Both the position numbers and the translations under genes were made by a program. Shown one piece after another: positions 21,201 through 36,028 of a stretch of 64,000 nt of DNA (the stretch's first letter is position 1; every line of letters begins with the position of its first letter). The notes below the pieces were generated by a model that searched no databases, was not told the DNA's origin, and saw only the letters and a list, made by a program, of their open reading frames with translations. Origin of the DNA: Plasmodium relictum (lineage: Eukaryota; Apicomplexa; Aconoidasida; Haemosporida; Plasmodiidae); contig NC_041682.1 in assembly GCF_900005765.1 (NCBI RefSeq), positions 405,420 to 469,419 on the forward strand. Direction: 5' to 3'.

Positions 21201-21500
21201 NNNNNNNNNNNNNNNNNNNNNNNNNNNNNNNNNNNNNNNNNNNNNNNNNNNNNNNNNNNNNNNNNNNNNNNNNNNNNNNNNNNNNNNNNNNNNNNNNNNN
21301 NNNNNNNNNNNNNNNNNNNNNNNNNNNNNNNNNNNNNNNNNNNNNNNNNNNNNNNNNNNNNNNNNNNNNNNNNNNNNNNNNNNNNNNNNNNNNNNNNNNN
21401 NNNNNNNNNNNNNNNNNNNNNNNNNNNNNNNNNNNNNNNNNNNNNNNNNNNNNNNNNNNNNNNNNNNNNNNNNNNNNNNNNNNNNNNNNNNNNNNNNNNN
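21201..21500. other. assembly gap of exactly 300 N
   Basis: Positions 21201-21500 are all N. The true length is unknown. It lies directly beside the most A+T-rich repeats in the window, so missing repeat sequence is likely. The adjacency of the two flanks depends on the scaffolding evidence across this gap. Confidence 1.
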
Positions 21501-22170
21501 AATAATATAAATAAATTAAATTAAATTGAATAATAATTAAATAATAAATAATATAATGAATTAAATAATATAATAAATAAATTAAATCAAATAACAATTA
21601 AATAATAAATAATATAATAAATAATTAATTGATAAATAATATAAATAAATTAAATTAAATTGAATAATAATTAAATAATAAATAATATAATGAATTAAAT
21701 AATATAATAAATAATTAATTGATAAATAATATAAATAAATTAAATTAAATAATATAATAAATAAATTAAATTAAATTGAATAATAATTAAATAATAAATA
21801 ATATAATAAATTAAATTAAATAGCAATTAAATAATGAATAATATAATAAATAAATAAATTAATTAATTAAATTAAATTAAATGATATAATATAATGAATA
21901 AATAATTAAAATTAAATAATAATAACATAATAAGTTAAATTAAATAGCAATTAAATAATGAATAATATAATTAATAAATAAATAAATTATTTAATTAATT
22001 AATTTAATTAAAATTAAAATAATAAATAAAATAAAATAAATAAATAATAAATTATTTAATTAGTTAATTTAATTAAAATAAAATAATAAATAATATAATA
22101 AATAAAATAAAACGATAAATAAATAAAATTAAACTAAATAATAAATAAATAACTTGAAAATTGAAATAAA
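21501..22170. repeat. very A+T-rich imperfect repeat block, candidate centromere core (truncated by gap)
   Basis: Built almost only from AATAAT, AAATT and ATAAT words. The first 400 bases contain about 14-16 G or C. A stretch of about 80 bases at 21501 recurs almost perfectly at 21635 (134 bases on), and its first 30 or so bases recur at 21725 (90 bases on). Shorter sub-repeats containing tagcaattaaataatgaat occur near 21810 and 21940. Plasmodium centromeres are known to be 2-3 kb tracts of about 97% A+T with short imperfect tandem repeats, one per chromosome. This block, its gene-free surroundings and its position fit that description. Confidence 0.65.
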
Positions 22171-23300
22171 ACATTCATAAAAAATAATATATCATAATTC
22201 AAATAATTTAGTCAAGTATAAATAAATAATATTTATTTTAAATTTAATGTATAAAATAAACAAAAAAATAATAAAAATTAAATAATATATATTAGAATAT
22301 ATTAATTAATATAAAATAAGTTAATAAATATATTTTATATTAAGTTAATTATAATTATTCAAATTCATTAAATTAGTTTTAAAAAGTATACAAAATTATT
22401 ATATTGTTTTTATTCCATTAAAAAATTAATAAAAATATAAATAATATACATCATTAATAATAGTTAATTAAATTCAATACTACAATTTTTATAAATATAA
22501 AATAAAAATATAATAAAAATATATATGTATATAATTAATTAAACTAAAAATGTATACTATATTATATTAAATTAAATTAAACTAATTTAATAAAATTTAA
22601 TTAATCATTATATTATTTTATTTATTTTTATTATTAAATGAGTTTATATATCTAAAATTATAAAAAATTAAATTATTATTTAATATAATCAATATATTTA
22701 ATTTAATTTTATTTATTATTATTTTTTTTTTTTTTAATTTAAATTATATACATATTATTATTATTTATTAATTATTCATTTCTTTAGTTATTTTGTTTTA
22801 ATTAAATTACTATTTTAATTAATATTATTTATTTGTTTTTTTAATTAAACTCATTTATATATTTATGCGTTAGTTTTTTAATTTAAAAAAATAATATTTA
22901 CATATTCATTATTAATTTATATGTTACTCATTTATGTAAATTATATTTATTTATTTATTTTATTATTTATATATATTATTTATTTGTTTTAATAATTTAT
23001 ATATTTGTATTATTTTTTTTTTTTATTTATTTATTTTTATTTATTATTTAAATAACTAATTTATTTAAATGTATCTTATATTTTTATAATATATATTAAA
23101 TGCATATATTACATATATATATATATGTTTAATTTATAATTTTTTTTTTTTTTAGATTATATTATTATAATTATTATACTTCATTTATAACATATTTATA
23201 ATTTTTTCTAAGATTATTTAATTTTTTAATTTAAAATAATTTAGAATTTTTATATTCTATTCATTAATCGTTTTTTTTTTTTTTAAATTACACATATTAA
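22171..23300. other. A+T-rich flank of candidate centromere
   Basis: Gene-free. Strand composition changes here: the repeat block is A-rich on the plus strand, while about 22610-23150 is T-rich, built from TTTATTTATT words. There are almost no G or C residues until about 23330. It is probably part of the same centromeric tract. Confidence 0.5.
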
Positions 23301-33233: not shown

Positions 33234-34252
33234 GAGAAAATTAAGGAAATTTTATTATAAGATTATTATTTCAAAAATGAAATCATGATTTTTATTTTAT
33301 GTTTCAATTAAATATGTGCTTTTCAAAAATTTGAAGTAGAAATAGGCGGTGTGCAAATACATTTACAATTTTCTTATTTTGATAAAAAGGGAAAAATAAT
33401 AATTGTATATTATAGTTAAAAGTTTTTTCTTTAAAAATTACAAATTTCCAAAAGAACGTTTGAATATTACATGGAAGAAATAGAAAAAAAAAAATTAAAA
33501 TATAATATTTTTTAGCATTTATGATACACATATTATTTATTATTTTCAATATTTAAAATATGGGTTACTACTTTAAAAAGATAAAAACAATACACTGTTC
33601 AAAAGAAAAATTTAAAAGAAAAAGTTTAAGAATCTTTGATAGAATTAGTAGCACACCTTATATTATATGTATGCACTTTTATTTTTATATTTTTTTGTTA
33701 TTAAATACTCTTTAGCTGAAGAAAATATATATAATTATTATAATTTTTTTTTTTTAATCATTATTGTTTAAAATATATACATAAATAACAAAAGAATGAA
33801 ATGCTTATTTCTTCACTTAAATAAGTATGCATATATAATATATAACCATGAGGCAAAAATGTGACTATTTTGCATTTAGAAGAAAAAAAAAGCGTATACA
33901 TAATGATATTTTACCTAATTTTTTAAGTATAACAATTATAAACAAAGAACAATAAGACAAAATAAATTAGTGAATAATTAAGGAACATATACATGATTTT
34001 TTATTCTTTCAATAATATTATTTTTTGTTTCATATTTTGGTAAACTGTAATATTCTAGATAAAAAAGTGAATATATAGTTTTGTATTCTTTATAAATTCA
34101 TTAAATATACCATTTCTTATTTCAATAATTTTTTATATCACTTGTTCAAATCCTTTTTCTTTTGAGATAAGTTGTCCTTTTAAACTAGAAGTAATTTATA
34201 GTTATAATCGTTCTACTATAAAATATTCTGAATTATAAAGGCATATATACAT
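32867..34252. other. convergent intergenic region
   Basis: About 1.4 kb between the basic protein gene (+) and the Ku70-like gene (-). It holds a (TA)n tract at 33184-33230. A minus-strand open frame at 33304-33549 has no domain and is probably chance. Confidence 0.5.
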
Positions 34253-36028
34253 TTAGATAAGTAATTTTTTTTTTTCATTAAAAATTACATTTTCAATAGC
34301 CATTCTAATTTTATTCATATTGATATTTTCAATCATGTAAGGATTAAATTCGTCCGATTCTATATATTTTAATATATTTGTTATTAAATCAATACATAAT
34401 TTGTCTCTTTTTACTAAGTTTTGGTTAACAGAAACATTTTTTGTACTACTTTTTTTAGAACTATCATTGAAGTATATATTTGAGTTAATAGATTTTCTCA
34501 TAAAGTTTGATATATTATTTTTAATGTGATAATTAAAGCTCATTTTATGTTTCATATAATTACAGTCTAAATATTTTATATCATTAAGAAATGGATACTG
34601 TTTTAATAAAAAACCAGCAGGAGTTTTCTTTTTTTTATTTACAGGAGGTGGAATGTAAGGTATTAAAAGAATTATTACTGGAGTGGAATGACGAAAAAAA
34701 ACTCCCATTGCAATCTTTTTCTTTTTTATGAGTGAAGATAACAAGGAATTAAATATTTTTACATTTCTTTTATCTTTTTGTTTAAAATAATCTTCTTCTG
34801 TTAAATCCTTATTCTTTTTTAATTTATATTTATTTTGATAATAGTTGCTTTGAGGAAAAATAAAATAATTAGAACTTAAATTATTTTCAATTTGCAAAAA
34901 TTCAGAATTTAAAAAGTGAGTTATTTTAATAAAATTTGCGTTATTATATGATAGTGTTTTTTTTTCATCATCCTTTATAATTACTTTAAAATCCTCTATA
35001 TTAATATATTTTGAATTTTCCTTTTTTAGAATTTCAGAGGAACTATCAATATAAAGTGCTTTGGGAGTTAACTTAGAGTTTTCCTTATGAAGAGTTACTA
35101 TATTTTTAATGTATTCTTCTTTACTAGATAAAAGATAAATATTTATATGAACGTTTAACCCATTTACTACATTCAAAATATTTGAAGTGTAATTTTTAGA
35201 AAGGGACATAATTCTCATTAAGCAATTTTTTAATTTATATAATATAATTTTTTTCTTTATATAATTTTGAAACACGCTTTCTGCAATAACTTCCTCTAAA
35301 ATTCTTATGTTTTTCTTTTTTTCTTTCTTTAAACGTATATAAAAAAACTCTCCTACTTTTTCAATTGACTCTAGCCTTTTTTTTAAAATATTTATATTTA
35401 AATGCTGAGGCATAACTGTTTGTGTATAATAAATAATTTTATTTACATAAATTACATTTTTATTAGTTGAATTATAAATAATTATTCTATTTAATAATAA
35501 TAATACATCTTCGAATGAACATAATGTGCTTTGAAATTTTCTGTTTTTGATTTTTTCTTCCATATCAAACATATTAATACTCCTTAATTTTGATATATCT
35601 ATTAAATATTTAATCAAATTAACACTTAAATATTGGAGATCAAAAAGAAAACATAATTTATAAAAAACAAAATTTTCATCTACTTTATAGCTTTTATATA
35701 AAATTATACATATTTTTATATTTTCATTTTTAAATGCCTTAAATTTTAATTCTTCAATTATACTTTGAAATATTATATACCAACTTGTATGTATTTCAGA
35801 ATTGCTATTAGTGGACAAAAACATATTTTCTTCATATTCAATTAAAAATATGATTTGTTCTAAATATTTCAATTTTTTTGTTTCTGTATCAATTATATTT
35901 GAGTAACTACTAAAATCGTTTATCTCTTCAGATGAGGGATCACTTTCAATAAAAAATACGTTTTTTTCACATTTTGAATTATTTTTTTGGGTTGAGTTAT
36001 TTACCGCAACAGAATTATAAAAATACAT
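34253..36028 (-). CDS. Ku70-like protein (vWA-type N-terminus plus Ku core), single exon
   Basis: A 591-residue protein; human Ku70 is 609. Residues 57-210 resemble the Ku vWA domain: LEQIIFLIEYEENMFLS aligns with SLIFLVDASKAMFES, and CSFEDVLLLL...KIIYYTQ aligns with SDYSLSEVLWVC...RIMLFTN. Residues 285-490 resemble the Ku DNA-encircling core: LNVHINIYLL (IVISVGIYNL), SSNYFIFPQS (PSLFVYPEE), STPVIILLIPYIPP (NIPPYFVALVPQ) and KTPAGFLLKQYPFLNDIKYL ([20 protein letters not shown]). Residues 540-590 match the C-terminal arm: LKYIESDEFNPYMIENINM aligns with LRFTYRSDSFENPVLQQHF. Motif order and spacing agree. There is no visible SAP domain. TPAGF favours Ku70 over Ku80. Ku70 normally pairs with Ku80 to bind DNA ends. 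Identity is low, so function and DNA binding are inferences. Confidence 0.7.
   Translation of the reverse strand: MYFYNSVAVNNSTQKNNSKCEKNVFFIESDPSSEEINDFSSYSNIIDTETKKLKYLEQIIFLIEYEENMFLSTNSNSEIHTSWYIIFQSIIEELKFKAFKNENIKICIILYKSYKVDENFVFYKLCFLFDLQYLSVNLIKYLIDISKLRSINMFDMEEKIKNRKFQSTLCSFEDVLLLLNRIIIYNSTNKNVIYVNKIIYYTQTVMPQHLNINILKKRLESIEKVGEFFYIRLKKEKKKNIRILEEVIAESVFQNYIKKKIILYKLKNCLMRIMSLSKNYTSNILNVVNGLNVHINIYLLSSKEEYIKNIVTLHKENSKLTPKALYIDSSSEILKKENSKYINIEDFKVIIKDDEKKTLSYNNANFIKITHFLNSEFLQIENNLSSNYFIFPQSNYYQNKYKLKKNKDLTEEDYFKQKDKRNVKIFNSLLSSLIKKKKIAMGVFFRHSTPVIILLIPYIPPPVNKKKKTPAGFLLKQYPFLNDIKYLDCNYMKHKMSFNYHIKNNISNFMRKSINSNIYFNDSSKKSSTKNVSVNQNLVKRDKLCIDLITNILKYIESDEFNPYMIENINMNKIRMAIENVIFNEKKKLLI

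Follow-up and report, generated by a model that had tools for sequence, protein, structure and literature searches.

A Ku70 gene with a decayed C-terminal arm and a candidate Ku80 partner in the bird malaria parasite Plasmodium relictum

Introduction

Plasmodium serves in the literature as an example of a eukaryote from which Ku and classical end joining have disappeared (PMC6635534, PMC5550746), and a 2019 survey describes the classical end-joining components as lost in the genus (PMC6635534). Elsewhere among apicomplexans, Toxoplasma and Neospora have a Ku70/Ku80 pair and, according to the same survey, keep all of the classical end-joining components (PMC6635534). An unusual combination, Ku70/Ku80 without Lig4, is described there for trypanosomatids, for which end protection, ATM signalling and telomere maintenance have been proposed as the roles of Ku (PMC6635534). 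In bird Plasmodium, Boehme et al. (2018) already named Ku70, as PRELSG_0411800 in P. relictum and PGAL8A_00014200 in P. gallinaceum, together with an I-TASSER model, and their text states that no orthologue of Ku80 exists there (PMC5880244). Within the open-licence literature these two Ku70 locus tags occur only in that paper, the tags of the two Ku80 candidates treated below occur in no paper, and no other paper on Ku in bird Plasmodium was found.

The gene analysed here is the avian Ku70 of Boehme et al. (2018). Our results differ from the main text of that study in two respects, namely that Ku80 was declared absent there whereas a Ku80 candidate was found here, and that a decayed SAP arm of Ku70 is not described in that text (PMC5880244). 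Ku70 itself is thus published; what is new is the Ku80 candidate, the decay of the SAP arm, and the combination of Ku without ligase IV in malaria parasites of birds. As in the trypanosomatids, both Ku genes appear to be kept and ligase IV was not found (PMC6635534 for the trypanosomatids). The two cases differ in that the trypanosomatids belong to another phylum, that one bird Plasmodium species has a truncated Ku70, and that no Ku relative was found from a mammalian-parasite Plasmodium. Toxoplasma and Neospora, which we set beside P. relictum by their published description, share the possession of an apicomplexan pair, but no ligase IV was found in P. relictum.

The Ku70 gene of P. relictum

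The window, that is, the whole 64,000-nucleotide stretch of DNA that was analysed, carries the Ku70 gene as a single open frame at 34253..36028 on the minus strand (C4:439672-441447 in the 22.6-Mb genome). The frame starts with ATG and runs uninterrupted for 591 codons, confirming the product length given in the preliminary description; assuming independent bases at the composition of the window, the chance of such a frame is about 10^-27. All seven motifs quoted there in favour of Ku70 were recovered in the order stated, at residues 58, 197, 292, 388, 449, 469 and 558. A centromere-like 2-kb stretch of 95.3% A+T lies about 11 kb from the gene, at 21201-23200 of the window.

The Pfam Ku profile (PF02735) matched the protein with 45.4 bits (E 1.1e-11, cut-off 25). 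This β-barrel region spans 34568..35164 (minus strand) in two Pfam stretches, of which the best covers residues 289-395, and a profile search of the contigs placed the two at C4:440263-440583 and C4:439987-440199. The vWA-like N-terminal region (residues 50-285; 35174..35881, minus strand) gave 11.6 bits with Ku_N (PF03731; E 0.23), below the cut-off of 20.6, and falls within the stretch that hhalign aligns to Ku70 (see below), which begins at around residue 57. The apparent order, a vWA-like region followed by the Ku barrel, is that of eukaryotic Ku70 (XRCC6; PDB 1jeq_A, human, and 8s82_K, yeast). The protein differs from these in its low identity, about 15% over the hhalign alignment, in an insert near residues 395-420 and, for P. 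relictum, in having no SAP arm. The length had been likened to that of human Ku70 (609 residues); the figure is correct, but the similarity is partly coincidence, as the first vWA strand starts some 20 residues later than in the human protein (residue 60 vs 39), the protein carries the insert and the SAP arm is missing.

Assignment to Ku70 was examined using an hhalign query profile built from the window protein and the two sequences related to it, with human plus yeast Ku70 and human plus yeast Ku80 as targets. The Ku70 alignment scored 68.3 (E 4.9e-8) over 393 columns, and none of 60 column shuffles scored as high (maximum 20.3). With Ku80 the score was only 28.9 over 69 columns, although this value also exceeds its 60 shuffles (maximum 21.5). 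Likewise, HMMs built from the human and yeast sequences gave 12.8 bits (Ku70) vs 6.1 (Ku80) for the window protein and 8.8 vs 3.6 for its P. gallinaceum orthologue. Counting against a clean assignment, the metagenome relative scores higher with the Ku80 HMM (8.8 vs 4.4 with Ku70), and the leave-out trees reported below are unstable. The predicted structure of the window protein is poor (pLDDT 32.4), too low for judging the ring fold. In a Foldseek search with this model the best 50 of 275 matches all came from Ku, DNA-PK or NHEJ entries, with a best E of 7.0e-5 and eight matches at E ≤ 0.001; Ku70 chains among the matches listed were 1jeq_A, 7sgl_B, 8ag4_A, 7lsy_A, 6erf_A and 9i04_A, in addition to yeast Ku70 (8s82_K). 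With TM-scores of about 0.1, the similarity is local and does not demonstrate a ring. Taken on its sequence, with Pfam Ku over the curated cut-off and a long Ku70 profile match, the gene is a real Ku70, in agreement with the identity first proposed for it, and DNA-end binding is predicted from this identity.

Three proteins were recovered in the search for relatives, namely the window protein itself (P0001), the P. gallinaceum protein (P0002, 82% identity) and a metagenome protein (P0003, 33%), and an alignment search returned the same three. The first of these searches started from 5.8 billion proteins and scored 7,999 candidates; it needs shared 5-residue words and scores only the best candidates. 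None of the three matches comes from a mammalian Plasmodium, which, for a search of this kind, is good, if not final, evidence of absence. The orthologue that the preliminary description proposed to look for in other Plasmodium proteomes is present in P. gallinaceum, and its statement that Plasmodium has Ku70 holds for bird parasites; Ku70 does not appear to be a feature of the genus as a whole, the P. gallinaceum protein and the one metagenome protein being the only relatives found.

Decay of the C-terminal arm

The P. gallinaceum Ku70 is 684 residues long and its C-terminal arm is still read in frame. A tblastn search with this protein located a decayed relic of the arm and SAP domain of P. 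relictum at 33981..34252 on the minus strand, directly behind the open frame. Residues 1-647 of the query aligned in frame -1 down to position 34091, and residues 649-684 continued in frame -3 at 34088-33981 with 75% identity. The 93 matching codons in the window contain four in-frame stops, counting that of the open frame itself, and one frame change. The tail of the P. gallinaceum protein carries a SAP match at the position typical of Ku70, with 18.9 bits below the cut-off of 23.9, so that a SAP-like arm is a further likeness of the orthologue to eukaryotic Ku70; in the window Ku70 the arm has decayed. A SAP domain is common in Ku70 and does not define it.

No lesion was found in the 591-codon core vs about 32 expected at the density of the tail, a comparison that is to be read as a contrast and not as a strict test, because core and tail are divided at the first stop, itself one of the lesions. 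Lineage-specific changes were even, 14 being confined to P. relictum and 14 to P. gallinaceum in 570 compared columns, and P. relictum keeps 160 of the 174 columns in which the other two sequences agree. On account of the lesion-free frame, the equal numbers of changes and the columns kept, the Ku70 core looks constrained, with the arm alone having been lost. A single tail lesion could stem from an error in the assembly, but hardly all five.

A second Ku-family gene

Searching the genome with the Ku profile gave a second match of 34.6 bits at C4:135708-136193 (plus strand), inside a frame of 923 codons. The protein has 917 residues from its first ATG and matches PRELSG_0403600 of P. relictum with 100% identity, which identifies the genome as that of P. 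relictum; its gene lies on the same contig as Ku70, about 302 kb away. The sole relative found was PGAL8A_00407100 of P. gallinaceum (66%), and no mammalian Plasmodium protein was among the relatives found. The automatic UniRef name of PRELSG_0403600 is ‘Ku domain-containing protein’, so the domain is already in public annotation.

Full-length Pfam scans of PRELSG_0403600 (P0004) and PGAL8A_00407100 (P0005) returned no family. As fragments, the P. relictum protein gave a Ku barrel match of 33.6 bits (cut-off 25), and the P. gallinaceum protein gave Ku_N with 23.6 bits (cut-off 20.6) and Ku with 32.8 bits in the order found in Ku. The N-terminal fragment of the P. relictum protein matched no Pfam family; the barrel was thus detected in both species and Ku_N in the P. 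gallinaceum fragment only. On these profile matches PRELSG_0403600 almost certainly belongs to the Ku family.

Comparison of the cores with the human plus yeast HMMs favoured Ku80. The core of the P. gallinaceum protein scored 10.9 bits with Ku80 vs -3.5 with Ku70, and that of the P. relictum protein 4.7 vs -9.9, the best of 300 shuffles being 2.9 (Ku80) and 3.4 (Ku70). At full length the P. gallinaceum protein scored 10.3 (Ku80) and 8.3 (Ku70) bits, and the P. relictum protein -0.0 and -22.6. The hhalign alignment of the candidate core to human plus yeast Ku80 was not significant, with 10 of 60 column shuffles scoring as high. The predicted structure was again poor (pLDDT 27); its Foldseek top rows were the vWA domain of Ku80 (6tyu_A) and the Ku80 of DNA-PK (6zha_C), and Ku-complex entries filled 13 of the first 15 rows, with a best E of only 0.045 and TFIIH in row 4. 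A nine-row tree placed the candidate with Ku80 (support 73/91), and the swapped grouping had a p-AU of 0.034. Of six leave-out trees, two kept the Ku70/Ku80 split and the other four left it unrejected (p-AU 0.28 to 0.54); the swapped grouping went unrejected in every leave-out tree (p-AU 0.08 to 0.25).

Taken together, these results make PRELSG_0403600 probably a Ku80, although the subunit trees are not robust. The search for a Ku80-like partner that the preliminary description had advised is thus likely to have succeeded, with PRELSG_0403600 and PGAL8A_00407100 both giving Ku-family matches, and the statement in the text of Boehme et al. (2018) that Ku80 is absent looks wrong from the sequences (PMC5880244).

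The tip of the candidate, residues 861-906 (L004:4790-4927), shows 83% identity between P. relictum and P. gallinaceum vs 55% and 63% in the two preceding stretches. In vertebrate Ku80 a kinase-binding peptide sits at the C-terminal tip, and the conserved tip of the candidate is a possible peptide of this kind.

Ligase IV and the proposed role of a Ku ring

In a six-frame search of the 514-contig assembly, the ATP-dependent DNA ligase catalytic profile (PF01068) and the N-terminal profile (PF04675) each matched one place only, both within an 857-codon frame on C14. With one ATP-dependent DNA ligase found, ligase IV is not evident in this assembly, and the C14 enzyme is presumably the replicative ligase I.

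Two open Ku-family genes, each with a P. gallinaceum orthologue, and a single ATP-dependent ligase suggest that bird malaria parasites probably keep a Ku70/Ku80 heterodimer, with PRELSG_0403600 as the partner, and that its ring protects DNA ends without classical end joining. The two products would form a DNA-encircling ring that slides onto double-stranded ends and blocks resection and fusion. Without ligase IV, such a ring would cap and protect ends instead of running classical end joining; at breaks it may guard the ends and then pass them on to homologous or microhomology repair. The ring would most likely have been retained for telomere capping, a role in line with that proposed for trypanosomatids. 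In P. relictum, Ku70 has shed its SAP arm and would therefore depend on the ring alone for contact with DNA. Several results count against this explanation, namely the non-significant hhalign result for the Ku80 candidate, the Ku_N match that exceeds the cut-off in P. gallinaceum only, the unstable trees, and the two models (pLDDT 32 and 27), which are too poor to display a ring. In addition, Boehme et al. report blood-stage expression in P. gallinaceum for only 2 of 50 avian-specific core genes, a figure that refers to the whole set (PMC5880244).

The ring might instead still join ends, with the C14 ligase or an unseen one in place of ligase IV. Both Ku subunits are apparently kept alongside one ATP-dependent DNA ligase, and ligase I is able to serve in back-up joining, which counts for such a pathway. 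Against this, the genome gave no match to the X-family polymerase palm (PF14792), for which controls matched below the cut-off only, and none to XRCC4, for which the control was equally silent; in trypanosomatids, moreover, Ku without Lig4 is described as taking no part in classical end joining (PMC6635534). Continued end joining thus appears unlikely. It is quite improbable that Ku70 acts without Ku80, the second gene encoding a second Ku70-like or a repurposed Ku-domain protein. Such a role would agree with the missing Ku80 orthologue in the report of Boehme et al. (2018; PMC5880244), with the full-length hmmscans of both candidates, which found no family, with the similar full-length scores of the P. 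gallinaceum protein for the two subunits and the score of zero of the P. relictum protein for Ku80, and with the instability of the subunit trees. It is opposed by the P. gallinaceum fragments, in which Ku_N and Ku exceed their cut-offs in the right order, by the Ku match in P. relictum, and by the core of the P. gallinaceum protein, whose Ku80 score lies well above both its Ku70 score and the best shuffle.

The lesions in the tail, together with the lack of a mammalian-parasite protein among the relatives found, could also be taken as signs that P. relictum Ku70 as a whole is decaying, the SAP arm having gone first and the remainder being about to follow. There is little probability of this, as the 591 codons of the core are free of lesions where the density of the tail would predict about 32, and the lineage-specific changes are evenly divided. 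An end-protecting heterodimer accordingly remains our preferred reading.

Retention of the entire ring in bird parasites would mean that Ku was lost within the genus or among its close kin. That loss could then be related to differences between bird and mammal parasites in indel patterns, in the healing of telomeres and in the turnover of subtelomeres, and the role of Ku once ligase IV has gone would become testable. We lean, by a modest degree, towards a wider proposal as well, in which a full Ku70/Ku80 ring, kept although ligase IV is missing, would make bird Plasmodium a further lineage beside the trypanosomatids to uncouple Ku from classical end joining, with an ATM/Tel1-like kinase possibly acting alongside the ring at chromosome ends and a joint loss of both subunits on the way to mammalian Plasmodium.

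Kinase candidates

A search for DNA-PKcs gave a single FATC match of 21.3 bits, below the cut-off of 25.3, in a frame of 4135 codons; in the PDB, ATM (2e-9) and Tel1 (1e-8) are the closest to its catalytic loop. For P. falciparum, the 2004 kinome lists DNA-dependent kinases among the kinds apparently not found and describes three PI3K/PI4K-like sequences in which FAT/FATC domains were not seen (PMC526369). The P. relictum frame lies at C11:96401-108805 on the plus strand (loci L007 and L008) and has GDRHLNN as its kinase loop, together with a FATC-like end. A further match of the PI3/PI4-kinase type, with 42.3 bits, was observed at C14:58190-58789 on the minus strand, within an open frame of 8319 codons.
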